64,000 nt of DNA. It comes from Torymus aiolomorphi (lineage: Eukaryota; Arthropoda; Insecta; Hymenoptera; Torymidae). Of the stretch, positions 2,291-52,523 are shown in pieces. The notes beneath the pieces are model-generated. The model did no database searches. It saw nothing but the letters and a program-made list of their open reading frames with translations, and was not told the DNA's origin. Location: NCBI GenBank assembly GCA_036365515.1, contig CM070873.1, forward strand, positions 264,548,575-264,612,574. The letters run 5' to 3'. Each line of letters starts with the position of its first letter. The first letter of the stretch is position 1. A program made the translations under genes and the position numbers.

Positions 2291-2581
2291 CTTCCAGGAA
2301 TAACCACTTATCTCCACTTTTTATTGTTTCGAGTAAATCGAGTTTTTAGTTTCGCATCGATGTTTAATATCAAGACAAATGAGGTTGAATCCCTGGCGAA
2401 AAAATCATGTGATTAATCATATGATTTATCACTTGATTTCGCACTGGATTTCTCACGTGATTAATCACGTGAAAAATCACGTGACAATACAAACATAAAA
2501 AAATAATATATAACGCTTATTCGTTAGTGAAACTTGTTTCCTTAATAGATAGCAAATACATTATCGCAGAAAAAAACGATA

Positions 2582-3143
2582 AGGTAAAAGACCCAGAAGA
2601 TGGACACTTATGACTCTAAAAATTTTCAATCATTTTTTTCGCAGTGAAAATCATTAGCTAGGGTAAAAATTTCGGTATATGTATAAGCCGAATACATTTT
2701 TGTAACGAATAAGACCAAATATTGTTAATAAATGATTAAAATACAAAATTTAAATCGACTTTAAGTAATGACTAAATTGTCGGAGAAGATGGACGGGTGA
2801 TTTTTTCTTTGCAGGAGTAGTCGGACAATTTTGGTAGTAATAGTTGGACAGCGAAATTACATGTAGTTTAAATGGTCCAACTATTGCTACCACTAAATTC
2901 ATATGGAAGGTATAGATGGACAGCACCATCTGCTCTGACCATAACCTCAATATTTGGTTCTCTTAATTTTTTCTTTTTGTAAGCCACAAATCGACTTCAA
3001 ATTAGCTTCATAAGAAAGTTCATACAAAAAAGAAAATTAGAAAACAAAATGTTTCGACATTTTTTAATTTTATATATGATTTTTGTCTCTGTCCATCCAT
3101 TGCTTCAACTTTTCAAAGTGTCCATCTTCTGGATCTTTTACCT
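2582..3143. mobile_element. MITE with AGGTAAAAGA TIRs, TA target
   Basis: Inverted termini of about 28 bp (AGGTAAAAGAYCCAGAAG) are flanked by TA on both sides (2580-2581 and 3144-3145). This fits the Tc1/mariner/pogo superfamily. The first ten bases match the ends of the 10.8-kb element at 37019-47774, so the two are probably related. It is non-autonomous; no transposase frame is seen. Confidence 0.75.
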
Positions 3144-3155
3144 TATATAAATACT

Positions 3156-3226
3156 CAACCGAGAATCGAACTCATGAACTTTGGGTTCCTGCGCAGGCAC
3201 GCTATCCATTACGCTATCACTCGCCT
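3156..3226 (-). repeat. tRNA-derived (SINE-like) pol III head
   Basis: On the minus strand an A box (TAGCGTAATGGATAGCGTG, 3216-3198) is followed about 25 bases later by a B box (GAGTTCGATTCTC, 3173-3161). The D arm and part of the T arm fold, but the acceptor and anticodon arms do not. I read it as a decayed tRNA or the head of a SINE rather than a functional tRNA. Confidence 0.45.
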
Positions 3227-3929
3227 GAAAGATTGTGGTCATTTTCACCTACATAAGGTGCATTCTCCATATTTATTGCTATTTCAAATTGATTATATAT
3301 GTAAAATATCAATGGTTTGTAAAAATTATTTATTTATACACTATATTAATACAATGCGTAACTTACGTTAAAACATTAATTAATGTTTATTTAAATTTAA
3401 ATTATATAATTAAATTCGAATAACTTGAGAATGTAGTGCCAGTAAAGTAGAAATCAGGTACCTACAAAACTAATTTTTTTTTTTAAACAAAATACCGAAT
3501 TATTTTTGTAAGATGTTATGAATGTAAAATTGTAAATAATGATCATTACGTTTTTAAAAATTTTTATTACTTTTGAAAAAGTTATTCGTCGGAATTATGG
3601 GTCGGAAATTTGATGTGTCTTTTTTTCTGCGATAATGTATTTGCTATCCATTGAGAAAACAAGTTTCATTAACGAATAAGCGTTATATATTATTTTTTTA
3701 TGTTTGTATTGTCACATGATTTTTCACGTGATTAATCACGTGAGAAATCGCGCCAAATCGTCACGTGAGAAATCCAGTGAGAAATGGTGATAAATCATAT
3801 GATTAATCACGTGATTTTTTTCGCCAGGGATGCAACACTGCATCTATGAATACTAATGAATACTAATCTAAATAACATATATTTTACTATAGTAACTAGA
3901 ACAAATAGCATTCATGTCTTAGAAAACGA

Positions 3930-4310
3930 CTTTCATTTGCATGGTTATTCCGGGAATAAACAAAAATTTCAGTGGAGTTACGTGGGTTTTCTGGTCTCAA
4001 TGGCAATTATATTGTTTTTTCGGCAATTACACGATAAATGTGAACTATCGCTCACGGGAGCTTGTAGGAGCAAATGTGTGTACTCTTTTTAATACAGCCA
4101 TCTTGTTATGGGTATACTTACAAGAATAAGGAACGCCTGTCTCATTGGAAAAGTGGAGTTGTATCGTTTTTCCAGGATATTGGATGAAAAAAGTGGAGTT
4201 TTTTTTTTCGGGAATTATTCTAAAAAAATGTGGAGTTATGTGGTTTTTCGAGTTATTCTAAAAAAAAAAAATGGAGATACGTGGTTATTCCCGGAAGCCA
4301 CAGATATAGA
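3930..4310 (+). repeat. Short-word repeat region (TGGTTATTCCCGG words)
   Basis: The words TGGTTATTCC, TGGAGTTACGTGG and GGAATTATTC recur in imperfect form, for example at 3941, 3973, 4190 and 4270. It resembles the internal word arrays of the neighbouring foldback elements, but I could not find matched termini. Confidence 0.35.
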
Positions 4311-4393
4311 TATATTTTACCATAGGTTTACTCGAAAAGTTTTCGATTTTGCCGCGCCATTCTCGGTCTCTATATGCATATGTTTCTGCATGT

Positions 4394-4891
4394 CCCTACT
4401 AAAAAATCTCAGGTGAGATCTCATGTCAAAATCTCACCTGAGATTCTGCTACAGATGCTGCGGAAAACTTATCTAAATTGAAAAGCAGCTTTATCAGTAT
4501 TGAAAATTGCCTATTAGGATGTTTTACCCCCCAATATGAACTCAAATATACACGTTTTACACAATTTTTCAATTTTTAGAAATTGGTACATGAGATTTTA
4601 TCTGAGATCTCACCTGAGATCTAATCTGAGAAATCACCTGAGAACTCATGTACCGAATTTGTAAAAATTGAACAATTGTGTAAAGTGCTTCTAAACGTGT
4701 ATTTTAGAGTTCATCTTGGGGGTAAAACATCCTAATAGGCAAGTTCCAGTACTGATAAAGCTGCTTTTTAATTTAGGTAAGTTTTCCGCAACATCTGGAG
4801 CAGAATCTCAGGTGAGATTTTGACATGAGATCTCACCTGAGACCTCACCCGAGAAATCACCTGAGATCTCACCTGAGATTTTTCAGTAGGG
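4394..4891. mobile_element. Foldback DNA element, CCCTACT termini, CTCACCTGAG words
   Basis: Inverted ends start CCCTACTRAAAAATCTCAGG and are packed with TCTCACCTGAGATCTCA words. The two halves (about 4394-4600 and 4700-4891) are near mirror images. GT lies on both flanks (4392-4393 and 4892-4893), a candidate 2-bp TSD. There is no coding capacity. It has the same architecture as the elements at 2391, 23252 and 49029. Confidence 0.7.
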
Positions 4892-4984
4892 GTTTGTTCC
4901 AGTTTTCGTAAACGACGCGGTGTATCGCGTCTCCTCGTGCCTGCCACCCTTATCGTCCTCAGTCATCCACGCTTGCGTGTATGT

Positions 4985-5040
4985 GAGTGCAGTGTGTGTG
5001 TGCGTGCGTGCGTGCATGCATGCATGTGTGTGTGTGTGTT
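4985..5040. repeat. (TG)n / GTGC microsatellite
   Basis: A run of TG and TGCG units, followed by non-repetitive sequence up to the next foldback. The apparent open frames over this tract are low-complexity artefacts. Confidence 0.8.
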
Positions 5041-5185
5041 ATGTAAACTGGTACTACCTGTACGCTTGGAATCTAAGTGTGCAGCTCCATGGTCGACTCC
5101 ACGAGTCCATAGTTTCATACTCAAATCCACGTGTATCGTGCATTTACGGGCTCACTTTTGGCATATATGTGAGTTTGAAATCGTA

Positions 5186-5455
5186 CACGGAGAAGATTAG
5201 GCACCGTTCTCGACGACACTTTCATTACCAACCATTCGTATGGAATCGTTGCTAACGGCGCTACGAATTATCGGGTGTGACGCAGTGTCGTCAAGAATGA
5301 CTTAGAGTCGTTTACCCTGGGTCGTTCTTCACGACACTGCGTCGTTTTTGACGAAACTGATGCGACACTCCCGACAGTTCGTAGCGTCGTTACATACGAA
5401 TCGTTGGTAACGAAACAAAAATTGTCGTCGAGAACGGTGCCTAACCTTCTCCGTG
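5186..5455. mobile_element. Small foldback element, CACGGAGAAG termini, GTCGT/ACGAC words
   Basis: The ends CACGGAGAAGRTTAGGCACC are inverted copies, continuing for about 65 bp. The interior is an array of ACGAC/GTCGT words. No clear TSD was found and there is no coding frame. It shares the word-array design of the CCC-terminated elements but not their terminus. Confidence 0.6.
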
Positions 5456-5580
5456 ACGTCGGGAGTGGCGTTATCTGATAAATCATCTGATTTTTTTATA
5501 TGTTTCTAATCATTCTTTTGTTTTCGTTGTGCATTTTTCATGATATAACAAAGTCTTGGCTATTTCTCTCTTCTATTCTC

Positions 5581-5804
5581 ATGGGCCTGAAGTTTGCATC
5601 GTTGGAATCCAACGAAATAATTTTTTACAATTAATTAAAATAACTATACAGTAAACATTTTTATCTAAACTTTTTTCATTAAGTTATTTTATACTATAAA
5701 ATACTAAATCTTCAGGCGAAACCAAAATTAATCAATATAACTTTGAAGTAAAATCTATTTTTTTTTATTTCGTTGCACTCCAACGTTGCAAACTTCAGAC
5801 CCAT
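5581..5804. mobile_element. 224-bp MITE with 8-bp TSD (hAT-type)
   Basis: Inverted termini ATGGGYCTGAAGTTTGCA run about 38 bp and are bounded by a perfect direct repeat CTATTCTC at 5573-5580 and 5805-5812. An 8-bp TSD points to hAT (less likely P or Merlin). The interior is AT-rich and non-coding. Confidence 0.8.
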
Positions 5805-5825
5805 CTATTCTCTGCTATAATAGAT

Positions 5826-6065
5826 CGTCGGATGGGAAGAGACAGGTCCCTATCTCCGCGAAGCACGTGAAAAGGTCCTGGTCCTATCTCTGGCGTGCAC
5901 GTACGAAGGTACCATCTGGTATCTAGGCCTGTCTTATACACCGGTCCGTATACGGATACGTTTGTGTATACGCATGAAAGAAACGGACATTCTGATGATC
6001 AGATCAGCTGAGATAGGACTTTTTCACGTGCTGAGATATAGAACCTTTTCCTTCCCACCCGACGA
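5826..6065. mobile_element. TIR element, CGTCGGRTGGGAAG termini
   Basis: About 60 bp at each end are inverted copies (CGTCGGATGGGAAGAGAC on the left), sharing CACGTGAAAA and CCTATCTC words. No TSD could be settled and there is no coding frame. It lies about 300 bp before the Ctr1 exon. Confidence 0.55.
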
Positions 6066-6380
6066 AATATTAAGACATGACTTATAAAGTATACAAGTGA
6101 AATGATCAATTTTATAGAAAAAAAATTTGCTCAAATTTCGGCATATTTTTCATTGCATATCTTAAATCTTATATAATAAATGATAATTGCCGCTAGTAAA
6201 AGTCACTGGCAGCATTACGACGAAAAATCGAGTTTTAACTGAAATCTAAAGAAAGCACTTAACTTTGAATTTGAAATGAGCGCACTAGTAATGGGGATAA
6301 TGACACATGTGTAAGGTGGTCTTGAAGTAGAATAAAGGTGTATTTTAGATGAATAAAAGTATACTGTTTTTTCTTATTAG

Positions 6381-6582
6381 GCCAACGATGCTTTCATGGA
6401 TGCACGTCTTTCAAACTGTTCTGCACATTGTGCAGATAATCCTATCGTATTTCCTGATGTTGATCTTCATGACGTATAACACGTGGTTGTGCACTGGAGT
6501 GGTGCTGGGCGCCGCGATAGGATATTTTCTGTTTGGCTGGAAGAAATCGGTTATTGTGGATGTGACTGAACACTGCCATTAA
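6381..6582 (+). CDS. Ctr1A: Ctr1-type high-affinity copper transporter, last exon (partial)
   Basis: This is the 3' coding exon of a plasma-membrane copper(I) uptake protein (SLC31 family), which works as a trimer. It opens after a splice acceptor (pyrimidine-rich tract, TTATTAG at 6374-6380). It contributes one base to a split codon, then 66 residues and a TAA stop. Seen in the translation: transmembrane helix 2 with the family MxxxM motif (MLIFM), then a short turn, helix 3 with GxxxG (GAAIG), FGWKKS, and the C-terminal HCH metal-handing motif. All are in the places expected from animal Ctr1. The extracellular Met-rich N-terminus and helix 1 are not found in the 6.38 kb upstream, so the preceding intron is long and TE-filled or the gene starts outside the window. 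The symbol is by family; Ctr1A versus a paralog is not decidable. Confidence 0.93.
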
Positions 6583-7430: not shown

Positions 7431-7460
7431 TGATATAAATTATTTGTTATGCCTTCTAAC

Positions 7461-8985: not shown

Positions 8986-9031
<46 letters not shown>

Positions 9032-9695: not shown

Positions 9696-9699
9696 CTCT

Positions 9700-23251: not shown

Positions 23252-23851
23252 CCCGGTCAAAAATATCCAGTTGGGAAATCCAACTGGATTTTCCAAGAGG
23301 GAAATTCAGCTGGGGAAGAGTGGATTCCAGCTGGATTTTGGTGGATTTCCCGTCGGATTCCCAGTTGATGATACCAAATATTCCCACCCATTTTTAACTG
23401 GATATTTAAGTGGATTCCCACCTAGATATAACAGGATTCCTATGCATTATTAACTGGATTTCCATTGAATAGAAAAGCGAAAGTTAGATGGATTCCCATC
23501 TATATTAAACTGGATTTTTACATGGATTTCCGCCGTCACGCTGGGATTCCCATTTATTATTAAGTAGAATTTTGAGTGGATTCCCATTTAATAGAAATGC
23601 GAAAGTTAGGTGGATTCCCACCAACATTTAACTGGATTTTTACATGGATTTCCGCCTTCGCCCAGGAATTCCCATTTATTATAAGTGGATTTCCATTTAA
23701 TCCAGTTAAAAATGGGTGGGAATATTTGATATCATCAACTGGGAATCCGACTGGAAATCCACCAAAATCCAGCTGGAATCCACTCTTCCCCAGCTGGATT
23801 TCCCTCTTGGAAAATCCAGTTGGATTTCCCAACTGGATATTTTTGACCGGG
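23252..23851. mobile_element. Foldback DNA element, CCCGGTC termini, TGGATTCCCA words
   Basis: A 600-bp palindrome. Both ends read inward as CCCGGTCAAAAATATCCAG and continue inverted for over 100 bp. The interior is arrays of TGGATTCCCA and CCAGTTGGGA words. The open frames on both strands over it are mirror translations of the words. No convincing TSD. It ends only 12 bp before the mariner. Confidence 0.75.
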
Positions 23852-24637
23852 TCCGGTGTTATATACCGGGTGTCCCATTTTAAAACCACCAGGCAAATAT
23901 CTCGAAAACTAAGGGAGATGGAAAAAAACTTTTAATACAAAAGTTGTAGGGTTCAGAGGGGCCCAACTGATAGTGACCTTGGTTATGACCTTGAGGTCAA
24001 TGATCAAGGTCATTTGAAGGTCAAATCGATTTTTTCAAATGGGAACCCCCACTTTTGACCTCGTAAATGGAAAGAGCGGAAAATTTTACGTTGAGATATG
24101 TCCTTGAGTCAAGGTCATGGTCATGGTCATGGTCGTGCTTAAAATCAAAATCAATCAACGCATAACATTCCCATAATTAGGCATACGAGTGTTAAATGCA
24201 GAAGTTGTAGGGTTTGGAGCGGCCCAACTGATCGTGACCTTGGTTATGACCTTGAGGTCAATGATCAAGGTCATTTGAAGGTCAAATCTATTTTTTCAAA
24301 TGGGAACCCCTATTTTTGACCTCGTAAATGGAAAGAGCGGAAAATTTTATTATTTTTACTATTATCAATATTTACCAGGGTTAACCACTTATATCAAATA
24401 ATAACAAAAGTTAATAAGTGTTGACCACCTGTATCCAATAGTGACCGGTAGTATTCAGCATTGATCGGTAATAGTCAATAATTATTACTGTTTACATCAA
24501 ATTGTTTTCAAATTGAGCACACTTATATTGGCACAAAAAATTAAACTTTTTCGTTTTAAAATATTGTATAGTATAATAACATATTATTTCTTTTGTGGTG
24601 TGTTTTGATAAATAATTGCATTTACAACTAAAAAAGA

Positions 24638-25705
24638 ATGCCTGACTATTCTGCTAATGAAATAGTTGACATTCTTCTTATTTTAGGAGAATGTCGACGA
24701 AACTATCGAGAGGCAAGCAGATTGTATCGTGCTCGGTTCCCTCAACGACAACATCCTGATCATACGGTAATACGTGACATTGAACTGCGCGGTCGACAAG
24801 GAAACTTCGTTCGAAGAAGGAGGACACTGAATGAACACGATTATGAAAATAATCCTCGCTTTCTTGCTGTTCTAGCCATGGTACATTTAAATGTTCATGT
24901 CAGTTTACGCGAAATCGAGTTAACAATGGGTATTCCAAGATCTACGGCCAGTAGATATTTACGATATGCGCGTTACCATCCTTACCACAATACTCTAAAT
25001 CAAGCTTTAACTGTGGAAGATTATCGACGGAGAATAACATTTTGCCAATGGGCAACACAACAAATTACTGATGATGAAAATTTCTTTAACAATGTTCTTT
25101 TTAGCGACGAGGCTACATTTCAGAGTACTGGTATGTTGAATCGCCATAATTGCCACTACTGGTCTCCTGTTAATCCTCATTGGATGCGAGAAGTTGATCA
25201 TCAGCATCGCTGAAATGTAACGGTATGGTGTGGTATTATTAACGGATGTCTGATTGGACCTTATTTTTTTGAAGGTCACGTAACTCAACATACTTATTTA
25301 CAGTTGCTGAGAGACGAGCTGCCACTCTTTCTAGACAACGTTGATCTCCATACAAGGGTCAGAATGTGGCTACAACAAGATGGTGCTCCTCCACATTATG
25401 CCAGAATTGTCAGAGATTTTCTTAATGAAAGGTTTAACGGCCGATGGATTGGTAGAGGAGGTCCCGTAGCATGGCCACCAAGATCTCCAGATCTGACATC
25501 TGCAGATTTTTATTTATGGGGCTTCCTAAAAAATACAGTCTACCGCAACAGGCCAACTACAAGAGATGACATGATTTAAAGGATTACACAAATCTGCTTA
25601 AGTATTCCACGTCAAGTATTATTAAATACTGTTAGAAACTTTAAAAGGAGAATAGAATGTTGTCAACAAGTAAATGGTGCAACTTTTGAGCATCTTCTTC
25701 AGTAA
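24638..25705 (+). pseudogene. Mariner-family (DD41D) transposase with two nonsense codons
   Basis: One reading frame of 356 codons spans the whole gene. It is broken by TGA at 25211-25213 and TAA at 25577-25579 but has no frameshift. The N-terminus (about 1-110) is a helix-turn-helix region of the type annotated as DUF4817 in insect transposases (ANEIVDILLILGECRRNYRE). The catalytic part shows LFSDEATF (first Asp), WCGI, LQQDGAPPHY (second Asp) and RSPDLTSADF (third Asp). I count 41 residues between the second and third Asp, so DD41D. The C-terminus NFKRRIECC...FEHLLQ is typical of the group. It is probably inactive as read, though recently so, since all catalytic residues remain. Confidence 0.9.
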
Positions 25706-25769
25706 ATGGTGACCGAAACACTTGGATCCTATGACTAAATACACATGAACGTGGAATTTTCCAATGAAT

Positions 25770-25992
25770 TTTTAGCTGGCCTGATCATCCCCGACCTTGT
25801 CTTAACTGGCCGGGTCATCTCCGACCTTGCCTTAACTGACCGGGTCATCTCCGACCTTGCCTTAACTGGCCGGGTCATCTCCGACCTTGCCTTAACTGTC
25901 CGGGTCATCTCCGACCATGCCTTAACTGGCCGGGTAATCTCCGACCTTGCCTTAGGTGACCGGGTCATCTCCGACTTTGCTCTTAACTGCAC
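25770..25992. repeat. 30-bp tandem repeat inside the mariner
   Basis: About seven to eight copies of a 30-bp unit (GGCCGGGTCATCTCCGACCT core), just downstream of the transposase frame. Repeating open frames on both strands come from the period being divisible by three. Confidence 0.9.
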
Positions 25993-26804
25993 GGAAACTG
26001 ACCATAACTTTGACCATGACCTTGACCCAAGGTCACATCAGAATTTTTCGGTTTTTCTATTTACGAGGTCAAAAGTGAGGGTTGCCGTTAAACAAAATTG
26101 ATTTAACCTTCAAACGACATCATCCTTGACCTCAAGTTCATGGTCAAGGTCACGATCAGTTGGGCCCCTCCAAACACTACAACTTCTGTATTTAACACTC
26201 GTATGCGTAATTATGGAAATGTTTGGATGCGTTGATTGATTTTGATTTTAAACATGACCATGACCATGACCATGGCCTTGACTCAAAGACATATCTAAAC
26301 GTAAAATTTTCCGCTCTTTCCATTTACGAGGTCAAAAGTGGGGGTTCCCATTTGAAAAAATCGATTTGACCTTCAAATGACCTTGATCATTGACCTCAAG
26401 GTCATAACCAAGGTTACGATCAGTTGGGCCCCTCTGAACCCTACAACTTTTGTATTTAACAATTTGTCTCGTATACCTAATTATGGGAATGTTTTGATGC
26501 GTTTATTGATTTTGATTTTTAACATGACCATGACCATGAGCATGACCTTGACTCAAGGACATATCTGAACGTAAAATTTTTCGCTCTTTCCATTTACGTC
26601 AAAAGTGGGGGTTCCCATTTGAAAAAATCGATTTGACCTTCAAATGAACTTGATCATTGACCTCAAGGTGATAACCAAGGTCACGATCAGTTGGGCCCCT
26701 CTGAACCCTACAACTTTTGTATTAAAAGTTTTTTTCCATCTCCCTTAGTTTTCGAGATATTTGCCTGGTGGTTTTAAAATGGTACACCCGGTATATGTAT
26801 ATAA

Positions 26805-38267: not shown

Positions 38268-38759
38268 CCCACATAGCATGAAAAGTTTTGATGAAACCTT
38301 TCAAGAAATATTTCATGAAAAGCTTGCCACAACCTTGCTGCAATATTACAGAAACCTCTCAAAAATATTTTCAGTAAGATTTCAAGAAACCTTACAGAAA
38401 CATTTTAGAAACTTTTCAATTAATGTTAAAAGTTGACCATCAAAATACATTTCATGAAATAATACTGCAAGCTTTTCTAAAGCTTTCATGAAATCTTTCT
38501 TACAATGTCTCTGAAAAGAAACATGTAATATTTCATGAAATATTATGGAAAGGTGTTGAAAAAATTTCTCAAAAAGATGCTTTTATTCCTACAGAACCAT
38601 TCAAGAAACATTATTAAGACCTTGCAAAAATATTTCACGAAAGGTTGTAAGGAAACCTTACAAAAACATTTCCTGTATCATTGTCTGAAACGTTTTAGCA
38701 AAGTTTTCGATACATTTTTGATGCGGAATAGATACCGTGAAAAAGCATTTCAAGAAATG

Positions 38760-39778
38760 TGTTTGGGAATTCAATAATTTGAATTCCCGCGGTTACACTC
38801 AGCTCGGCACGACTCACGGCGCTGCCACGGCGCGGCAGCACCTCGCGGCCTCCTGGCGGAACAGCCGGGACGCTACACTGATTAACAAGGTATATTCGCG
38901 CTATTTCGATCTCTCTCGCGCTCTCACATGTAAATGTGAGAGGAATTAGTTTGATTCGCGAAGTGAATCGTCAAGACCAAGAAGAAGGAAGTGGATCAAG
39001 GCCTCGCTCTCTTTTTCATCAGCCGTGCCACGAGGAGCATCTCTCCGCTGCGCACCTGTAAAATCTCATCGGTTGTTCTCAAGTTTTTCACTGGCTCAAC
39101 TCAACACTGGATCAACTCAAACAGGCTCTACTCAATCTCTCACTGAAAACTCACATCACTCCTCACTCACGCAATACTCAAGGTGCAACGACGATTAGTA
39201 AAATCGACTCTATTGCAAGGTAAAAACTCTCACCATACTAGAGGTTATGTTGCCAACCACGTGTTGGCACCGGCGGCAAGTGTAACAGTGAACATGTGTG
39301 AATTAGCAAAACTCAAGGCAGCAATTCAATTACAATTGTTTGCCATTCCTCATTTTTGACAGCTTCATTGTGCGTGAGCCCAGGAGGGAATTTAAGGAAA
39401 AACTCAAGGAACTCTCAACGGACAATCTCATTACACTCGAAGACATACTCAAATATCACAGGTTAGTTGTCTCTAGTGAGAGACTACTACTCCATTATTG
39501 ACAGCACTCATATTTTGGAATTGCTGACACACTACTCACCTACAACTTATTCAAATAAATGTAATTTAAACTCCCTTTGTAATTTATGTTAATTATTGAA
39601 CAGATTTTGAATTTATTAGTCGACGTTGAAATGTATTTATGAACCAAATTTGTAATTTATTTAAGAAGTGACTTTTGTGAATATAATTTCTACTTCCAAT
39701 TTACTTCTGTGTGTGAATTAAATTTATTTTAGCACCCACAGCATGTTTACTCACATATAATTATGGCTTACTCAAACA
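38760..39778. mobile_element. Solo LTR 3 (1019 bp, TSD AAATG)
   Basis: It starts TGTTTGGGAATTC and ends CTTACTCAAACA, with inverted TGTTTG/CAAACA. The 5-bp duplication AAATG lies at 38755-38759 and 39779-39783. The neighbouring array monomers read CAAGAAATGTTACTGC without interruption, a direct empty-site control. It is GC-richer than its host array and has no internal coding region. Confidence 0.82.
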
Positions 39779-42700
39779 AAATGTTACTGCAAGGTTTTTC
39801 AAAGCTTTCGAGAAAGTTTTCTCGCAAACATTCTCTGAAGAAACATTTCATGAAATATTACGAAAAGGTTTCAAAAAGATTTCTTGAAAAGATTTTTTTA
39901 TGAAACTGAGAATGTATAAAATATTTCCGAAACCTTTCAAAAATATTTCACGAAACTTTATATGGAAACATTACATAAACTTTTACTGTATCATTGCCTA
40001 AAATGTTTTGGCAAAGTTTTCGCAACGTTTCTGATACGCAATAGACACCATGAAAAAGCAATTCAAAAAATGTTACTGCAAAGTTTTTCAAAGCTTTCCA
40101 GAAAGTTTTCTCGCAAACATTCTCTGAAGAAACATTTCATGAAATATTACGAAAAGGTTACAAAAAGATTTCTTAAAAAGATTTTTTTATGAAACTGAAA
40201 ATGTATAAAATATTTCCGAAACCTTTCAAAAATATTTCACGAAAGGTTATAAGGAAACATTTCAAAAACTTTTTCTGTATCATTACCTAAAACGTTTTGG
40301 CAAAGTTTTCGCAACGTTTCTGATACGCAATAGACACCATGAAAAAGCAATTCAAAAAATGTTACTGCAAAGTTTTTCAAAGCTTTCCAGAAAGTTTTCT
40401 CGCAAACATTCTCTGAAGAAACATTTCATGAAATATTACGAAAAGGTTTCAAAAAGATTTCTTGAAAAGATTTTTTTATGAAACTGAAAATGTATAAAAT
40501 ATTTCCGAAACCTTTCAAAAATATTTCACGAAAGGTTATAAGGAACCATTTCAAAAACTTTTTCTGTATCATTGCCTAAAACGTTTTAGCAAAGTTTTCG
40601 CAACGTTTCTGGTACGGATTAGACACAGTGAAAAAGCAATTCAAGAAATGTTACTGCAAAGTTTTTCAAAGCTTTCCAGAAAGTTATCTCTCAAACATTC
40701 TGTAAAGAAACATTTCATGAAATATTACGAAAAGTTTTCAAAAAGATTTCTTGGAAATATTTTTTTATGATACTGAAAATGTATAAAATATTTGTGAAAC
40801 CTTGCCAAAATATTTCACGAAAGGTTATAAGGAAACATTTTAAAAACATTTCCTGTATCATTGTCTGAAACGTTTTAGCAAAGTTTACGCAACGTTTTGG
40901 TTACGAAATAGACATCGTGAAAAAGCATTTCAAGAAATGTTACTGCAAGGTTTTCCAAAGCCTTCCCGAAATTTTTTTTTGAAAAAATTCTTAAAGAAAC
41001 ATTTCATGAAATATTACGAAAAGGTTTTCAAAAGCTTTCTTAGAAAGATTTTTTTATGAAACTGAAAATGTATAAAATATTTGTGAAACCTTTCAAAAAT
41101 ATTTCACGAAGGTTATAAGGAAACATTTCAAAAACTTTTTCTGTATCATTGCCTAAAACGTTTTAGCAAAGTTTTCGCAACGTTTCTGATACGGAATAGA
41201 CACCGTGAAAAAGCATTTCAAGAAATGTTACTGCAAGGTTTTCCAAAGCCTTCCCGAAATTTTTTTTGAAAAAATTCTTAAAGAAACATTTCATGAAATA
41301 TTACGAAAAGGTTTTCAAAAGCTTTCTTAGAAAGATTTTTTTATGAAACTGAAAATGTATAAAATATTTGTGAAACCTTTCAAAAATATTTCACGAAGGT
41401 TATAAGGAAACATTTCAAAAACTTTTTCTGTATCATTGCCTAAAACGTTTTAGCAAAGATTTCGCAACGTTTCTGATACGCAATATCCCACATAGCATGA
41501 AAAGTTTTGGTGAAACCTTTCAAGAAATATTTCATGAAAAGCTTGCCACAACCTTGCAGCAATATTACAGAAACCTCTCAAAAATATTTTCAGAAAGATT
41601 TCAGGAAACCTCACCGAAACATTTTAAAAACTTTTCAATGAATGTTAAAAGTAGACCATCAAAATATATTTCATGAAATAATAATGCGAGCTTTTCTAAA
41701 GCTTTCATGAAATCTTTCTTACAACGTCTCTGAAAAGAAACGTGTAATATTTCATGAAATATTATGGAAAGGTGTTGAAAAAATTTCTCAAAATATGTGT
41801 TTATTCCTACAGAACCATTCAAGAAACATTCTTAAAACCTTACAAAAATATTTCACGAAAGGTTATAAGGAAACCTTTCCAAAACATTTCCTGTCTCATT
41901 GTATGAAACGTTTTAGCAAAGTTTACGCAACGTTTTGCAAACGCACTTCAAAAAATGTTACTGCAAGGTTTTACAAAGCTTTCCCAGAATTTTTAGCGCA
42001 AACTTCCTATAAAGAAACATTTCATGAAATGTTACGAAAAGGTTTGAAAAAGATTTCTTGGAAGGATTTTTTTATGAAACTGAAAATTTAAAAAAATATT
42101 TCCGAAACCTTTTAAAAATATTTCACTAAAAGTTATAAGAAAGCTTTCAAAAACACTTCCTGTATCATTTTCTGAAACGTTTTAGCAAAGTTTTAGCAAC
42201 GTTTTGGATACGATATTGGCATCGTGAAAAGGCACTTCAAGAAATGTTACTGCAAGGTTTTACAAGACTTTCCCGAATTTCTATAGCAAACCTTCGACAA
42301 AGAAACATTTCATGAAATGTTACGAAAAGGTTTGAAAAAGATTTCTTGGTAGGATTTTTTTATGAAACTGAAAATGTAAAAAAATATTTCCGAAAGCTTT
42401 TAAAAATATTTCACGAAAAGTTATAAGAAACCCTTTCAAAAGAATTTCTGTATCATTGCTTCAAATGTTTCCACAATGTTTTCGCAATTTTTTGATACGG
42501 TATAGACATCATGAAAATTCATTTCAAGAAATGTTACTGCAAGGATTTACAAGGCTTTCCCGAAATTTTTAGCGCAAATTTTCTATAAAGAAACATTTCA
42601 TGAAATGTTACGAAAAGGTTTTAAAAAGATTTCTTGAAGTATTATTTTATGAAACCTGAAAATGTAAAAAAATATTTCCGAAACCCTGCAAAAATATTTC

Positions 42701-45055
42701 ACGAAAAGTTATAAGGAAGCCTTCAAAAACATTTTCTGAAACATTTTCTGAAACCTTTTAGTAAAGTTTACGCAACGTTTTCGATGCGATATTGACATCG
42801 TGAAAACGCATTTCAAGAAATGTTAATGCAAGGTTTTACAAGGTTTTCCCGAAATTTTTTCGGAAACTTTCTATAAAGAAACATTTCATAAAATATTACG
42901 AAAGGCTTTCAACAAGATTTCTTGGAAGTATTTTTTTATGAAACTGAAAATGTAAAAAAATATTTCTGAAACCCTGCAAAAATATTTCACGAAAAGTTAT
43001 AAGGAAGCCTTCAAAAACATTTTCTGAAACATTTTCTGAAACCTTTTAGTAAAGTTTACGCAACGTTTTGGATGCGATATTGACATCGTGAAAACGCATT
43101 TCAAGAAATGTTAACGCAAGGTTTTACAAGACTTTCCCGAAATTTTTCTCGCAAACTTTCTATAAAGAAACCTTTCATGAAATGTTATGAAAAGGTTTAA
43201 AAAAGAATTCTTGGTAGAATTTTTTTATGAAACCGAAAATGTAAAAAAATATTTCCGAAACCTAGCAAAAATATTTCACGAAAAGTTATAAGGAAGCTTT
43301 CAAAAACATTTCCTGTATCATTTTCTGAAACGTTTTAGCAAAGTTTTAGCAACGTTTTGGATACGATATTGGCATCGTGAAAAGGCACTTCAAGAAATGT
43401 TACTGCAAGGTTTTACAAGACTTTCCCGAATTTCTATAGCAAACCTTCGACAAAGAAACATTTCATGAAATGTTACGAAAAGGTTTGAAAAAGATTTCTT
43501 GGTAGGATTTTTTTATGAAACTGAAAATGTAAAAAAATATTTCCGAAAGCTTTTAAAAATATTTCACGAAAAGTTATAAGAAACCCTTTCAAAAGAATTT
43601 CTGTATCATTGCTTCAAATGTTTCCACAATGTTTTCGCAATTTTTTGATACGGTATAGACATCATGAAAATTCATTTCAAGAAATGTTACTGCAAGGATT
43701 TACAAGGCTTTCCCGAAATTTTTAGCGCAAATTTTCTATAAAGAAACATTTCATGAAATGTTACGAAAAGGTTTTAAAAAGATTTCTTGAAGTATTATTT
43801 TATGAAACCTGAAAATGTAAAAAAATATTTCCGAAACCCTGCAAAAATATTTCACGAAAAGTTATAAGGAAGCCTTCAAAAACATTTTCTGAAACATTTT
43901 CTGAAACCTTTTAGTAAAGTTTACGCAACGTTTTCGATGCGATATTGACATCGTGAAAACGCATTTCAAGAAATGTTAATGCAAGGTTTTACAAGGTTTT
44001 CCCGAAATTTTTTCGGAAACTTTCTATAAAGAAACATTTCATAAAATATTACGAAAGGCTTTCAACAAGATTTCTTGGAAGTATTTTTTTATGAAACTGA
44101 AAATGTAAAAAAATATTTCTGAAACCCTGCAAAAATATTTCACGAAAAGTTATAAGGAAGCCTTCAAAAACATTTTCTGAAACATTTTCTGAAACCTTTT
44201 AGTAAAGTTTACGCAACGTTTTGGATGCGATATTGACATCGTGAAAACGCATTTCAAGAAATGTTAATGCAAGGTTTTACAAGGCTTTCCCGAATTTTTT
44301 TCGGAAACTTTCTATAAAGAAACATTTCATAAAATATTACGAAAAGCTTTCAAAAAGATTTCTTGGAAGTATTTTTTTATGAAACTGAAAATGTAAAAAA
44401 ATATTTCTGAAACCATGCAAAAATATTTCCTTTCCCGAAAAGTTATAAGGAAGCTTTCAAAAACATTTCCTGTATCATTTTCTGAAACGTTTTAGCAAAG
44501 TTTTCGCAACGTTTTCGATACGATATTGACAGCGTATTAAACGCATTTCAAGAAATGTTACTGCAAGGATTTACGAAGCTTTTCCGTAATTTTTCTCGCA
44601 AACTTTCTCTAAAGAAAGATTTCATGAAATGTTACGATAAGGTTTTAAAAAGATTTCTTGGAAGAATTTTTTTATGAAAATGAAAATGTAAATAAATATT
44701 TCCGAAATCTTGCAAAAATATTTCGCGAAATGTCATAACGAAATCTTTCAAAAACATTTCCTGTATCATTTTCTGAAACGTTATTGCTAAGTTTTAGCAA
44801 CGTTTTCGATATGAATTGACATCGTAAAAACGCATTTCAAGAAATATTACTGCAAGGATTTACGAAGCTTTCCCGAAATTTTTCTTGCAAACTTTCTCTA
44901 AAGAAACATTTCATGAAATATTACGAAAACGTTTCAAAAAGTTTACTTGGAAAGATTTTTTTATGAAACTGAAAATGTAAAAAAATATTTCGGAAAGCTT
45001 GCAAAATCATGTCACGAAAAGTTATAAGGAAGCTTTCAAAAACCTTTCCTGTATC
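39779..45055. repeat. ~288-bp tandem array with higher-order structure
   Basis: About 16-17 monomers, each with TTTCATGAAATATTACGAAA and GTATCATTGCCTAAAACG-like landmarks. From about 42161 to 44470 four-monomer blocks of about 1153 bp repeat almost identically: TGTATCATTTTCTGAAACG at 42161, 43314 and 44471. That points to recent unequal exchange. Confidence 0.85.
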
Positions 45056-45064
45056 ATTCTTACA

Positions 45065-45490
45065 CGCCCTCCGGTCTTAAAGCCATTTTAACTCAAACGT
45101 AGATCCCTAACTTATCGGCACATAAATATTATGTTTTTTTATCACATCTAAAAAAAAATTTTAGGAAAAAGCGTTTTTTCACACCCACCGAAATTGGTTT
45201 AAGCATACTGTATTAAATTTCCATATGATTCCATCCATTAGATTTTTCCAAAAACGTTTTCCAAATTAGTAATTAACCCGAACAAAGCATGAAACATTTC
45301 AAAATCCATTTTATAGAAATCTAATTAATGCAATGATTTAAAAATTTAATAGGGCATTTCACTTAATGTTATGTCGGAGAGCATGAAGAACGCTTTTTCT
45401 AAAATTCTTGTTTAAATACGATAAAAGAATTAAAGTTTAGGTGCCGGTAAGGTAGGGATCATGTCGGTACTTCACATGGCCTTAACAAAA
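45065..45490. mobile_element. MITE inserted in the array (possible TTAA target)
   Basis: TTAAAGCCATTTTAAC at the left and its imperfect inverse on the right (CATGGCCTTAA, about 45475-45486) share about 45 bp, including GTAGATCCCTAACTTATCGG. TTAA borders both ends, hinting at a piggyBac- or Kolobok-type target, but the terminal match is imperfect. Confidence 0.5.
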
Positions 45491-45621
45491 GAATTAGTTG
45501 AGTCTATTAAATATCATAGTCGAAAGTACTCAATATGTTGTCTTCTAATCAAATGTTTGTAATTTTTATTCAAGTTTACTCTATACTTAGCTAAAATTAA
45601 AATTTTGTACGGTAGAAGCGT

Positions 45622-45698
45622 TGCGTAGCGTAGTGGTTAGCGCGTCAGCCTTGTAATCCGAGGGTCTCGAGTTCGATCCCACCTTAGGTCAAAATTTT
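45622..45698 (+). repeat. tRNA-like pol III unit (Thr-TGT-like, decayed)
   Basis: A box TAGCGTAGTGGTTAGCGCG, loop CTTGTAA (would-be TGT anticodon) and B box GAGTTCGATCCC. The D stem pairs perfectly, but the anticodon stem has only 3 of 5 pairs and the T and acceptor stems fail. I call it a tRNA-derived repeat or tRNA pseudogene. Confidence 0.5.
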
Positions 45699-45959
45699 TT
45701 TCTGCGTTTTTTCTGTAAGATAATTTGTAAATGCGAAATTGCAAGCGATAATTAATATAAATTAATGCAAATATATAATAATTTAATATTAAAAAACATA
45801 TCTGATATAATAACTATTCATATATATTAAGTTGCAGGAGTTCAGGAAAGATCATCAACTTGAAAAGTCTACAAGGAAAAAACTTGTTTTCAAAATTGTT
45901 AAAAAAAAATATTAAAACATTTCTATTTCCGATTTCTTTTGAAAAATATTTTTTTAAAT

Positions 45960-46990
45960 CTTTTTAAAATGTTTCAAAAACCTTACTTGATGGTTTTGAG
46001 GCCTCTTAGAAACTTGCGTAAAACATTGTCGTATCCTTTCAGAAATATTTCACAGAACTTTTCAGGAAACCTTTCCAATATCTTTCACAAAATATTTCTT
46101 GAAATATTTTTTAAATATTTCAAAAACCTTATGTGATGATTTGGCAACCTCTTAGAAACTTGCGTAAAACATGGTCGTAACCTTTCAGAAATATTTCACG
46201 AACTTTTCAGGAAACCTTTCGAAAAATATTTTTGTAAATCTTTTCGAAATATTTCAGAAACCTTTCGTGATGGTTTAGAGACCTCTTAGAAACTTGCGTA
46301 AAACATTGTCGTAACATTTCAGAAATATTTCACAGAACTTTTTCAGGAAACCTTTCAGATACCTTTCGAAAAATATTTTTGTAAATCTTTTTAAAATATT
46401 TCAGAAACCTTTCGTCATAGTTTTCAGACCTCTTAGAAACTTGCATAAAACATTGTCGTAACATTTCAGAAATATTTCACAGAACTTATTAGGAAACCAT
46501 TAAGATACCTTTCGAAAAATGTTTTTTAAAACTTGTTGAAATATTTTGAAAAGTTTTCGTGATGGTTTTGAGACCTCTTAGAAACTTGTGTAGAACATTG
46601 TCGTAACTTTTCAGAAATATTTCACAGAACTTTTCAGGAAACCTTTCAGATACCTTTCGAAAAATATTTTTTGAAAACTTGTTGAAATATTTTGAAAAGT
46701 TTTCGTAATGTGTTGAGACATCTGAGGCACTTGCATAAAATATTGTCACAACCTTTCAGAAATATGTCTTGTAACTTTTCAGGAAAAGCTTTCAGAAAAT
46801 ATTTCCAGAATTCTTTTTAAAACGATTTAAAAACCTTTCATGAAATTTTTGGGCATCTGAGGCACTTTCCTGAAACATTGTCAAAACCTTTTAGAAAACT
46901 TTCATGTAACCTTTTAGGAAAGGTGTCAAATATATTTCAAGAAATATTTTTGAACGTTTATTGCACGGACATATGAACCTTTTAGAAACC
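45960..46990. repeat. ~140-bp tandem array (right part of the 8.8-kb element)
   Basis: About seven diverged units with CCTCTTAGAAACTTGCGTAA followed by CATTGTCGTAAC and TTTCAGAAATATTTCAC. They differ from the 288-bp monomers but share the same TTTC/GAAA words. Confidence 0.75.
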
Positions 46991-47076
46991 TTTTTCCGAA
47001 ATATTTTTGCAAGGTTTCCAACCTTTCATGAAACCTTTTGAAAACCTTGCAGAAACATTTCGTGCTATGTGGGTTT

Positions 47077-47265: not shown

Positions 47266-48256
47266 CAAATAATAAATCCAAACCAAAAAATAAATTAATT
47301 GTAATTTCAGATATTTAAAAATAAGTATTAAGTATTTTAAGTTGTATGCAATTATTGTATTAATTTGATACGTTTAAAATTGTATTTTATATTCATGTTT
47401 TTTAATAAAAAAATTATAAAAAATTTAAAATCATCATTTGTATATCATAAGCCTCTTATTGTAAGTAAAATAGTACATAAGTTATGAAATTAAAACTGAT
47501 TTCTATCCTGTTCCAAAATGGGGATATCGATTATAGAACGGGGAGACAATCTGTAAAAATGTCGTTCCATAATACGTACTTGGTGTCGGTTTGGTTTTTT
47601 AATTGTAATAATTACAATTCGTATTCAATTTGCTTTAAGGTCTCATTTTAATCTTTGATCTTTACCCCATCGATTGATATCCAAAAATTGTAAATATTAC
47701 TCCTGTACAATAGTTTTAATCTCAATCCAAACTCTAAACTAGCAAAAACTGTTCCATAAAGGGTACTTTTACCTTATATCAGTTCGAAATTTATAGACTA
47801 TTTTATATGCGATATAGGCAATACCTATGTAAAATTTCATCCAAATTATATGGTTAGTTTTTGAGATATTTGATATTTAAAATTTTGGTATTTCTGGAAA
47901 TGACTTTCTATTCGCACAATAACTAGAGTAAAATTTAATTACTTTAGAATTTGATGGAGATGTAGATTTGATGAAGGTGTAGAGTTTGTATATTATTTAT
48001 GACATGAATTGTTAGGGTAAAAGAATTAGTTTATAAATTTCTGAGATATTTGAAGTTAAAACTGTTAAAACTGTTTTAACAGTTCATAGCCCTCTTTTCA
48101 AATCGTAATTTTTCGGGAACGGTTTTATGTATATGTTACTAGAAAATGGAAATGACGCGCGCGTATCGTGCATGTGTTGTTTACTTCCTTTTGTTTTTTA
48201 TTGAGGTTAATTTACAACCAGCTCTTCAGAAACATGAAACTAGTCAGATACGCTGG
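47266..48256. other. Right end of the pogo-like element, then repeat DNA
   Basis: Up to 47774 this is 3' non-coding sequence of the transposon, including GGGGATATCG...GGGGAGACAATC. From 47777 on it is the dispersed repeat also seen at 36640-37010. 48140-48256 shows nothing recognisable. Confidence 0.45.
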
Positions 48257-48690
48257 CCAATTATTTTGAGTTTGAATTAATTTTTCGAATAATCGCCATT
48301 TGAAGTGGATATAGTAAGAATTACCCTTTCTCAATTTTGAGATAAAAATTTTAAAGTTGAAATGGTTATGGTTCATGGGCATATAATTTTATATACACTC
48401 ATTTTGCTTTTAGAAATTTATATAAATGTTTTTGTTACCTGCCACTGATATTTTTGTTTACACAATATTTTATTTGCTTTTGTTTTTTATGAAGATGGTG
48501 TAATACTCGTACTTTATCATTAATCCTGTTTTATCGGCTGAACATGTCAAAATCATTAATATTAAAAATAATTATTTGTGTCTTAAACAAATTGAATAAA
48601 ATAAGTGTGAAATAACAAAAAATTTAAATAATAAGAAAAAAAAATGAGATTTACAAATATTAATAAATTATTAAATCATTGAAAAAGTAA
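48257..48690. repeat. Duplicated segment, partner of 52524-53140
   Basis: TTTTTCGAATAATCGC, AGTAAGAATTACCCT, AAGATGGTGTAA and TTAAATCATTGAAAAA occur in the same order and direction at 52535-53135, at about 80-90% identity by eye. The pair brackets the foldback at 49029-52506. Confidence 0.6.
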
Positions 48691-49797
48691 ATTGGAATCG
48701 TCCAATGAGATGGCACGATTTTAAAATTGACTAGACACGTTCGGAAAAAATCAACTTCCCTCGGGTGTAAATAACTGGAGTAAAATTGTTGTAATTTTTT
48801 ATTTTTTGATAATGTGAGTAAATTTAAAATTTTACTCTGGTAAAACTGACCTCAAGAAATAATTAAATTTAAGGTAGTTGACCGCTCAATGCCGTCATAA
48901 AAATTACAATATCGGAAAAATTGTGCTGTAAGCATATTATGTAGGCATGTTCGGCAAGAATCAACTTCTGTCGGGTGTAAACTCATTTTTAAGAAAATTT
49001 AAAGAAAATCAATTTTCTGGTGAACTATCTCTATTGAAAAAAATCATGTGACTAATCATATGATTAATCCAGTGATTAATCACATGATTAATCATATGAT
49101 AAATCATGTGATCAATCATGTGATTAATCGTGTGGTTAATCATGTGATCAATCATATGATTAATCACATGATATTATCGACGGAAAAATCATGTGATTAA
49201 TCACATGATTAATCACATGATTGATCACATGAATTTTTCCAGAATCCAGGAATATGCTCTGCTGAATTTATAACTTAATTTATTTATTATCTAGCAGTTT
49301 ACCACTGCTATATTATAAATGAAAAATAATAGTTAAATGAAACATTTGCAATATAATATAATTATTTGTATATTACAGTTATTTAGATAATTAATTCAAT
49401 TGAAGATATAGACAATTTTATTGTTATTACAATTATAATGTTCCGACATAACTGAAGAATGGGACAAAATAAGAACTTCTAAATATATTCTGCCCTAATG
49501 AAAAGATGGGATATTTGGATTAGTGGGTATAGATGAGCAATTGATATACGATAAATGGGCCCTATGGGTTTTCCTTGCGGGTCCCATATGACTGATATAA
49601 AACTAGTTAACATTTCTTTTTCGGATTACAAACATTTTATTCGAATAATAATCAATATTACTTCTTATACTACTTTGATAAAAGTATATTTTTATTATAA
49701 ATTAAGGCTATAACTGTAAATAAACAATAAAGACACGCAACATACCTGTATATAGGAATAAGATTATTATAAATGATATTGTTATTAATGTAGAGAA

Positions 49798-50040
49798 ATG
49801 ATGTTTAAGGAGCCTCGTGCTCGCGCTACTCGACTCCGACCCGTGGTAGCAAATTCACACGAAGCCGGAGCCGAGCGCGCCCACGTGTACTCGATTTTGG
49901 CAGCTACCATGAACAGTTGCGACGACATCGGCGACAGCGCGAGGAGGCCACTACTTGGCGATGATGTTTCTATTAAAAAAAAAGAGAAGATATTTTACAT
50001 AAAGTCAGCTGCTCAAAATTTTAGAATTGTTTATGTTTAA
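49798..50040 (+). CDS. GC-rich ORF inside foldback, possible captured exon
   Basis: An 80-codon frame stands out for GC content in AT-rich DNA up to about 49970, then fades into AT-rich codons. An internal ATG at 49910 would give MNSCDDIGDSARRPLLGDD. That resembles the short cytosolic N-termini with an acidic dileucine sorting signal found on many lysosomal or endosomal membrane transporters. I cannot assign a family. It may be a first coding exon, with a weak donor GTTTCT at about 49967, caught between the element's inverted arms. It could equally be non-coding promoter DNA. Confidence 0.3.
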   Translation: MMFKEPRARATRLRPVVANSHEAGAERAHVYSILAATMNSCDDIGDSARRPLLGDDVSIKKKEKIFYIKSAAQNFRIVYV

Positions 50041-50249
50041 TTTGTGAGTTAACTAATATTTTTTATTCAACAAAATTTTTTCTGATTCTTTATTAAAAAC
50101 CATTTAAAATGAGCCCTGGAACGATATTAGCAAACATTTAAAATGATCCATTTGGAAAGTCTCAGATTCGCTACTTATTAGTATACCTTCATCTGAAAAA
50201 AAGAAAATAATAAGTACAGCAGAATATTTTTGATTGGACAAAATTTTTA

Positions 50250-51834
50250 CTGAATCTTTATTAAAATCCCTTTCAAATAAGCCCTGATCGATTTTCGCAA
50301 ACCCACGTGAAAAGAATTGTATATTTTTTTAATGTCAGTAGAAACCAATAATTGGTATTTTTGACAACCTGCTGGATTTGAGATCTTAATATTATTCATA
50401 TATCTTATGTCATTGATCTTGTCGCTGAATTTTCTCAAAGCATGAAAAATATATTAAACATCTATTTTCAACAATATTTTCAACAGGCATTTATACTTTC
50501 CTAAATTGTCAATGGGAGATGCTTACACTGTTAATACACTCTATTTGTAAACTTCATGTCTATTCGAAACTGAATTTTATAAGTAATCCATTATTATGTG
50601 TACCAAAGCTAAAAGTAAAATACTATAAAAAAGTTGCAATCAAATTAGTTGAAAGACAATTAAGAATTGTATATTTCAATGCGCATACAAATACTTCTTA
50701 CTGAATAATTTTCAAATAAAATATGGTGTTCTTATTAAGGCTTCGTTTCATGAATTTCATAAACTATGTAATCTACAAACTTATAACTCACTAAGATCCA
50801 TAATACAATTATTTAATTTTCAACTTAACACTGAATAGTTTATGAAATTTCATGAAGCGGAGGCTTAATAAGAAAACCATATTTTATTTGAAAATTATTG
50901 GTTATGGAGTATACGTCTGTGCATTTGAATTTGCAATTGCTAAATTGTCTTTCAACTACTTTATTGCAACTTTTTTATAGTTATTTACTTTTAGCTTTGG
51001 CACACGATAATATAGATTACTTATAAAATTGTTTCGAATAGATATGAAAATTACAAATATAGTTAAGCGTCTCCTATTGAAAATTTAGGACAGTAAATAA
51101 AAATATTATTACTTATAAGCCAGTAAAAAATATTGTTGAAAATAAATATTTAATATATTTTTCATGCTTTGAAAAAATCAGCTACAAGATCCATGACATG
51201 AGATATATGAATAATATTAAAATATCAAATCCAGCAGGTTGTCGAAAAAGCCCTGATCGATGTTCGCAAACCCACTTGAAAAGAATTGTATATTTTTTTA
51301 ATGTCAGTAGAAACTAATAATTGGTATTTTTGACAACCTGCTGGATTTGAGATCTTAATATTATTCATATATCTTATGTCATGGATCTTGTCGCTGAATT
51401 TTCTCAAAGCATGAAAAATATATTAAACATCTATTTTCAACAATATTTTCAACAGGCATTTATACTTTCCTAAATTGTCAATGGGAGACGCTTACACTGT
51501 TAATACACTCTATTTGTAAACTTCATATCTATTCGAAACTGAATTTTATAAGTAATCTATTATTATGTGTACCAAAGCTAAAAGTAAAATACTATAAAAA
51601 AGTTGCAATCAAATTAGTTGAAAGACAATTAAGAATTGTATATTCCAATGCGCATACAAATACTTCTTACTCAATAATTTTCAAATAAAATATGGTGTTC
51701 TTATTAAGGCTTCGTTTCATGAATTTCATAAACTATGTAATCTACAAACTTATAACTCATTAAGATCCATAATACAATTATTTAATTTTCAATTTACGCT
51801 GAATAGTTTATGAAATTTCATGAAGCAAAGGCTT
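50250..51834. repeat. Forward-reverse-forward triplicated segment
   Basis: 50250-50870 and 51247-51834 are direct copies (ATGTCAGTAGAAACYAATAA, ATGGGAGAYGCTTACACTG). 50885-51240 is an inverted, slightly shorter copy. The open frames at 50247 and 51225 on the minus strand are the same chance frame in the two direct copies. Confidence 0.8.
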
Positions 51835-52523
51835 AATTTATAATAAAAATATACTTTTATCGAAGTAGTATAAGAAGTAATATTGATTATTATTCGAATA
51901 AAATGTTTGTAATCCGAAAAAAAATGTTAACTAGTTTTATATCAGTCACATGGGACCCGCAAGGAAAACCCATAGGGCCCATTTATCGTACATCAATTGC
52001 TCATCTATACCCACTAATCCAAATATCCCATCTTTTCATTAGGGCAGAATATATTTAGAAGTTCTTATTTTGTCCCATTCTTCAGTTATGTCGGAACATT
52101 ATAATTGTAATAACAATAAAATTGTCTATATCTTCAATTGAATTAATTATCTAAATAACTGTAATATACAAATAATTATATTATATTGCAAATGTTTCAT
52201 TTAACTATTATTTTTCATTTATAATATAGTAGTGGTAAACTGCTAGATAATAAATAAATTAAGTTATAAATTCAGCAGAGCATATTCCTGGATTCTGGAA
52301 AAATTCATGTGATCAATCATGTGATTAATCATGTGATTAATCACATGATTTTTCCGTCGATAATATCATGTGATTAATCATATGATTGATCACATGATTA
52401 ACCACATGATTAATCACGTTTGATCACATGATTTATCATATGATTAATCATGTGATTAATCACTGGATTAATCATATGATTAGTCACATAATTTTTTTCA
52501 ATAGGGTACCTTAAATTATATTT

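Follow-up and report, generated by a model that had tools for sequence, protein, structure and literature searches.

The closest described systems are the animal TRC elements, Spongebob and the CACTA elements of plants. In the parts of the published accounts drawn on here, the TRC elements of DeMarco and colleagues start with CCC and show 2-bp flanking repeats in 7 of 14 copies (PMC1636069), Hydra copies of Spongebob combine a CCC start with a 2-bp duplication (PMC4298943), the plant CACTA element Jozin ends in CACTA, four bases and an A-run at offset 9, with a 12-bp motif repeated subterminally (PMC8978399), and in plants the TNPA protein recognises subterminal repeats, which differ among families (PMC2613891). 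We analysed a 64,000-nucleotide stretch of the Torymus aiolomorphi genome (the window; C1:264548575-264612574 within a 1.0846-Gb assembly of 21 contigs) holding five transposon-like elements, E1 to E5. We conclude, with a probability of roughly 0.87, that these are non-autonomous (deletion-like, or like miniature inverted-repeat transposable elements) members of several animal TRC families, the branch of CACTA/EnSpm cut-and-paste transposons whose ends start with CCC. The support in hand consists of their ends and subterminal arrays, of 2-bp duplications established for two families out of five, and of Transposase_21 genes that, elsewhere in the genome, are bracketed by ends built on the same plan. 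A first-pass annotation had left the elements outside any named superfamily; because the literature describes CCC starts with 2-bp flanking repeats in animal TRC elements, at least in the portions of those accounts used here, they can be placed in TRC/CACTA (PMC1636069, PMC4298943).

All five elements lie where the first-pass annotation had put them, and its view of them as transposon ends with word arrays beside the ends is supported. The features, with the family assignment at the strength given above, are as follows.

2391..3829, unstranded: E1, a foldback and putative non-autonomous TRC/CACTA-like element, with AT/AT flanks and ATCA-NN-TGAT words of period 12
2391..2490, + strand: E1 5-prime end and word array, with 6 symmetric CANNTG words
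3714..3829, - strand: E1 3-prime end and word array, with 5 symmetric CANNTG words
4394..4891, unstranded: E2, putatively non-autonomous, with GT/GT flanks and CTCA-NN-TGAG words; its genomic copies have 2-bp target duplications
23252..23851, unstranded: E3, putatively non-autonomous, with CCA-NN-TGG words of no clear single period and unmatched 2-bp flanks
38268..47073, unstranded: E4, large and putatively non-autonomous, with CCCACATAGC ends, TTTC-NN-GAAA words at 11-12 bp and TTT flanks
41487..45058, + strand: second, internal CCCACATAGC start of E4, then an approximately 288-bp tandem array of the same kind of words
49029..52506, unstranded: E5, a putatively non-autonomous foldback with ATCA-NN-TGAT words as in E1, starting CTC on the left and CCC on the right
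49029..49235, + strand: E5 left word array, with 13 symmetric CANNTG words
52300..52506, - strand: E5 right word array, with 12 CANNTG words, 11 of them symmetric

The elements are unlike in size and body sequence. Terminal inverted repeats starting CCC, a TRC/CACTA feature, are present at both ends of E1 to E4 and at the right end of E5; the first-pass claim of CCC termini in all five fails only at the left end of E5, which is CTC. E1 begins with CCCTGGCGAAAAAA and E3 with CCCGGTCAAAAAT, each at left and right, E2 ends in CCCTACT(A/G) followed by an A-run, E4 in CCCACATAGCA(T/C)GAAA, and the right end of E5 is CCCTATTGAAAAAAA. As had been noted, four elements (E1, E2, E3 and E5) have an A-run after CCC; their plan is CCC (CTC on the left of E5), 4-5 bases and 5-7 A starting at offset 7 or 8. 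The arms of E5 are 501 nt long and 99% complementary. Another CACTA feature, short motifs arrayed subterminally in either orientation, is likewise present and is weak in E3. The earlier statement that unrelated bodies share one plan is supported; E1 and E5 are related through their arrays.

Exact 2-bp flanking repeats were found in three of the five elements (AT in E1, GT in E2 and TT in E4; expected 0.078 each, P ~0.004), in agreement with the AT, GT and TTT reported at first pass. Among other lengths, 1-bp repeats flank two elements (E4 and E5), a 3-bp repeat flanks one (E4, TTT), and repeats of 4-10 bp flank none of the five. Pairs of CCC...GGG number 49 in the window against 1-8 in 20 block shuffles. 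We rejected the bare pair count as a marker: it does not single out the elements, many of the pairs come from other repeats, and of the 64 triplets CCC is among the lower-ranked. A search of the window with joined flanks yielded no clean empty site. Joined-flank scores above the shuffles for E3 and E5 were discounted. The E5 alignment involves the right flank alone, which has a diverged direct duplicate upstream of the element (48259-48503 and 52514-52754, 85% over 248 bp), and the E3 score likely reflects its right flank running into a neighbouring TA-flanked transposon.

Target duplications were scored genome-wide for the E2 and E4 families. The exact E2 end pattern occurs at 796 places (reversed-pattern control, 0), and 40 of 1,450 candidates were scored in the E2 search. 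Aligning genomic copies, as the first-pass annotation had proposed for all five families, fixed the duplication at 2 bp for these two: it is present in 25 of the 28 E2 copies read with flanks, the window copy included, or 23 of 26 sites, as three copies sit at one duplicated site judging by their flanks. Its letters vary (TA 8, AT 4, TT 3, others). At other lengths, E2 copies gave matches of 1 bp in 5/28, of 3, 4 and 6 bp in 1/28 each, and of none of the remaining lengths up to 10 bp. Exact E4 ends number 1,315 (reversed-pattern control, 0), and 8 of 10 E4-type pairs, chosen on C1 at 5-8 kb apart among the first 100 places listed, have 2-bp duplications. One of the two pairs without a duplication probably takes an internal start as its left end, because the 14 bases of its left flank recur immediately before the window's internal start at 41487. 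Six other end pairs, from two transposase-bearing families described below, gave a 2-bp duplication in five. Pairs of E2 ends also occur farther apart, at 4.0 kb (C1:127003085-127007096) and 4.4 kb (C1:127821820-127826198), and both enclose an additional end.

Other superfamilies were considered and rejected. A TTAA flank, as in piggyBac and Kolobok, is found at none of the five elements, and the E2 and E4 duplications are varied 2-bp sequences. The 8-9 bp duplications of hAT, P and Mutator elements are absent from the window elements (0/5), the E2 copies (0/28) and the E4 pairs (0/10). TA, the target of Tc1/mariner, accounts for 8 of 25 E2 duplications, the other 17 having other letters, and a 3-bp match as in PIF/Harbinger (TWA) occurs in 1/5 window elements (E4, TTT), 1/28 E2 copies and 1/10 E4 pairs. 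It could still be argued that CCC ends arose convergently and that the five elements come from several unrelated superfamilies, given that piggyBac ends also begin with CCC and that E3, E4 and E5 each lack some feature of the plan. We hold this to be highly improbable: both families open to testing (E2 and E4) make 2-bp duplications, TTAA flanks are missing from all five elements, and the geometry of their arrays is similar. A scan of IMG/VR for the end and word patterns returned 16 loci, all of which lacked both an exact inverted partner and an array of at least 4 equal dyads. Scanning prokaryote contigs returned no loci.

CACTA and TRC elements have the Pfam family Transposase_21 (PF02992) as their transposase domain. 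We obtained 150 scored PF02992 matches out of 344 candidates in the host genome and none in 14 control genomes (kind unstated). Three 10-kb transposase loci, L105, L106 and L107, were selected for the length of their open frames and for repeated copies; their frames of 779, 733 and 732 aa match Transposase_21 at E values of 3.5e-10, 4.9e-11 and 1.9e-11. L107 has the end CCCTGTTGAAAATATCCACGCGGA, with 18 TCCA-NN-TGGA words in ~960 bp, and L106 has the end CCCTTATGAAAAAATTCTGTAGAA, with TTCT-NN-AGAA words. The L106 pattern recurs at 81 places with at most one mismatch (reversed-pattern control, 0) and delimits two giant elements, C1:18639310-18676022 (36,713 bp, GT/GT flanks) and C4:60234324-60271139 (36,816 bp, CT/CT flanks), both with inverted CCC ends, dyad words, a Transposase_21 match ~2.2 kb inside and a 733-aa open frame. 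The four 70-bp ends of these giants are identical; the sequence read comprises, for the C1 copy, roughly 7.4 kb at its start and 0.5 kb at its far end and, for the C4 copy, ~100-140 bp per end. A further pair of this giant family, on C2, spans 26.8 kb with AA/AA flanks and has no scored transposase match inside, and a 244-bp passenger of the family has unmatched 2-bp flanks, with ATA/ATA instead. Additional inverted pairs of the giant-family end pattern lie ~10 to 57 kb apart. An E2-like element, with the word CTCA-CG-TGAG and TA/TA flanks, is nested in the 36.7-kb giant (L106:8178-9778).

The L107 end pattern, of the TCCA family, is more abundant, with 1,634 places at no more than one mismatch (reversed-pattern control, 0). 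At C1:49909174-49924223 (15,050 bp), inverted CCC ends with dyad words surround a Transposase_21 match, with AA/AA flanks. A Transposase_21 match inside and AA/AA flanks are also seen at C1:49546027-49563836 (17,810 bp), a less certain pairing given another inward end 339 bp from its left end. Ends sharing the plan of the window elements enclose Transposase_21 in the host genome at C1:49909174-49924223, C1:18639310-18676022 and C4:60234324-60271139. A transposase copy between CCC-type ends, which the first-pass annotation had suggested seeking, exists elsewhere in the genome, with end sequences that differ from those of the window elements.

Counts of CANNTG in the arrays were compared with 300 dinucleotide shuffles. 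For E1 and E5 the counts in both arrays lie above all the shuffles, as do those in the 3-prime array of E2 and the 5-prime array of E3; in the other two E2 arrays (5-prime and middle) and in the 3-prime array of E3 the count is the same as that of the highest shuffle. E4, whose word is TTTC-NN-GAAA, showed no CANNTG enrichment over these shuffles. Clusters of at least 3 symmetric CANNTG words per 60 bp occur in E1, E2, E3 and E5 only. When all 4-mer dyads with spacers of 0-9 were scored, the top or tied-top dyad had a 2-bp centre in E1-left (ATCA), E2 (CTCA, tied with TCTC at spacer 4), E3 (TCCA), both ends of E5 (ATCA) and E4-left (TTTC); of the TTTC..GAAA dyads at spacers 0-8 in E4-left, all 8 show spacer 2. 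A spacer of 0 leads at two other ends, with TCAC in E1-right and AAAT in E4-right, GAAA-NN-TTTC coming second in the latter. The leading period is 12 for the arrays of E1 and E5 and for two of the E2 arrays (middle and right), and 11-12 for E4; E3 has no clear single period, and the central two bases of the dyads vary. The words can be read as a 4-base half-site, two free bases and the inverted half-site, often at 12-bp spacing, with letters differing by family. The first-pass annotation had taken each word as unique to its element; the letters do differ and the grammar seems shared, the departure being E1 and E5, which have one word and whose arrays match each other by blastn.

The position of the words was compared across 16 partly related ends, from the window and fetched loci, with at least 3 of 4 pairs needed for a dyad. 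For 11 of the 16, the distance from the tip to a dyad axis is 19 bp. It is 18 in E1-left, and the 19-bp axis is not among the best three dyads in E5-right, which is changed at its first word, or in the end at L060, a short transposase locus. The first TCANNTGA word of the E2 copies, which share descent, has its CANNTG at offset 16 in 26/28 left and 27/28 right ends. Such words could arise as by-products of slippage and inversion in foldback arms, perhaps retained because they serve hairpins or hairpin transcripts in replication or small RNA production. The long, near-perfect arms would suit this origin, E2 copies vary from 498 to 568 bp with 7-15 TCANNTGA words, and the 288-bp tandem expansion in E4 attests to word turnover. 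We nevertheless consider a by-product origin unlikely, as the 4-NN-4 grammar recurs with other letters in several families, the axis falls at 19 bp in most of the ends compared, related as some of them are, and the first E2 word keeps its offset, albeit among copies of common descent. The tandem arrays at 39779-45058, with units of 288-289 bp built from E4 words, are possibly a satellite born from the subterminal array.

CANNTG is also the E-box bound by basic helix-loop-helix proteins. The words might then dock host factors instead of a protein of the element, and the CANNTG core in E1, E2, E3, E5 and the TCCA-type transposase element could draw host proteins of this class. E4 (TTTC-NN-GAAA) and the giant family (TTCT-NN-AGAA) hold the same grammar without CANNTG, and the central two bases vary, which makes host docking a decidedly improbable account, below even that of slippage. 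We read the lattice as a probable set of docking sites for a protein that is dimeric and specific to its family; that the words are bound, and co-evolve with the transposase as proposed at first pass, is what we infer.

Several observations weigh against the TRC/CACTA placement or the shared geometry. E3 and E5 lack matching 2-bp flanks, and E4 lacks the early A-run. The E3 dyad is weak: its best count of 4 equals the shuffle maximum, its strongest spacer summed over all dyads is 7, not 2, and the array scan does not flag it. E4-right mixes spacers of 0, 1 and 2 (5, 10 and 10 dyads), and the first E4 axis is at 17 at both ends. No Pfam family exceeded its cut-off in the 20 stop-to-stop open reading frames scanned in the window (11 of the 26 listed for E4, 7 of 15 for E5, 2 of 21 for the E1-E2 stretch and none of E3), or in the GC-rich stretch of E5 at ~49.8-50.0 kb. 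Because the scanned frames show no transposase, we take the window elements as non-autonomous and file them by ends, duplication and plan; their link to the transposase rests on that shared plan, not on identical end sequences. By eye, no listed PF02992 match was noticed between listed E2 or E4 end pairs (the first 100 end places listed for each). L105 has no CCC end or array in the 10 kb read, and no left end of L107 was found in ~12 kb upstream. The CCC and A-run string occurs in 18 of 30 short transposase loci, which makes the string alone uninformative; it adjoins words only in L060 (TTCT-NN-AGAA), and a stricter array test was passed by 0/30 of these loci and 1/29 control loci.

We propose the following mechanism. 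Cleavage by the transposase would take place at the CCC tips, and each 4-NN-4 dyad would be bound by a DNA-binding protein acting as a dimer, either the transposase or a TnpA-like partner. Half-sites of alternating orientation would form a docking lattice along the arm, usually starting with a dyad whose axis is 19 bp inside the tip, a distance that may position the catalytic domain at CCC, and the lattice in the two arms could help the ends pair. Families would separate by switching half-site letters with the geometry kept. More specifically, and tentatively, at appreciably less than even odds, half-site switching may diversify animal CACTA families in one genome, with a fixed lattice (axis at 19, 4-NN-4, ~6-bp alternation) retained as the scaffold for a dimer, on which the letters (ATCA, CTCA, TCCA, TTTC, TTCT) and a binding domain particular to each family change in concert.

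Set against the described systems, always within the portions of their accounts consulted, the Torymus elements resemble TRC elements (SmTRC1 and relatives) in CCC ends, 2-bp flanking repeats and Transposase_21, the published ends including CCCTAGTAGCACC... in Tribolium and CCCAGTCAAC in Aedes (PMC1636069). They differ in the half-site lattice, which does not figure in that account, and in size, TRC elements measuring 4.5, 5.2 and 9.2 kb versus 15 to 36.8 kb for the transposase between paired ends here (PMC1636069). Spongebob, a CACTA element of Hydra and insects, shares the CCC start, the 2-bp duplication (in Hydra copies) and non-autonomous insect copies, but its end, CCCAGCCAACATTGAC, has no A-run and its account gives no word array (PMC4298943). 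With plant CACTA elements (Jozin, En/Spm and Tgm) the shared traits are the A-run and 12-bp subterminal motif of Jozin, direct and inverted motif copies, a DNA-binding partner protein and motif divergence between families; plant elements differ in their CACTA tip and 3-bp duplication, where CCC stands here, and the long foldback arms of E1, E2, E3 and E5 and the alternation of half-site orientation about every 6 bp set the Torymus elements apart (PMC8978399, PMC2613891). No published description of the half-site lattice was found in the literature searched, most subscription papers lying outside that literature.

Other repeats lie in and around the elements. A separate ~568-bp repeat with ends TAAGGTAAAAGA... 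is nested in E1 (2580-3147); a genome search with the whole of E1 returned mainly this repeat, whose 30 genomic loci, the window's included, show no clear target duplication by eye. Another inverted-repeat element, with ends GGCTTCCRGGAATAACCAC, appears to enclose E1 (2290-4299). The E4 span given at first pass also holds, besides the internal start at 41487, a solo insert resembling a long terminal repeat (38760-39778, 1,019 bp) with TG...CA ends and AAATG on either side. By eye, tRNA-like A and B box sequences are present in E1 (~3150-3225, - strand) and E4 (45620-45690, + strand); neither ARAGORN nor a box scan called them, and Rfam and ARAGORN searches returned nothing. Next to E3 lies the TA-flanked transposon (23861-26796), which has a transposase-like frame interrupted by a stop and a match to the DUF4817 helix-turn-helix at 24638-25213. 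A foldback with CAAGGGG ends and TTA flanks (53627-54342) looks Harbinger-like by eye. The interval 60300-62900 holds a strongly purine-rich long interspersed nuclear element with reverse transcriptase, whose protein at 60.9-62.0 kb has its two best named matches in Bombus and Camponotus, in keeping with a hymenopteran genome.

If half-site switching does operate, it would insulate the families from one another, directing passengers (~130 bp to ~10 kb) and the ~37-kb giants each to the enzyme proper to them, and ends and words together may be a readable code linking each passenger to its enzyme. A shared geometry would explain why such foldbacks seem unrelated, and it suggests an annotation rule for trial, namely CCC, an A-run at 7-8, a dyad axis at 19 and a 2-bp duplication. 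Conserved geometry with interchangeable half-sites would also make the co-evolution of transposase and site testable on natural pairs.

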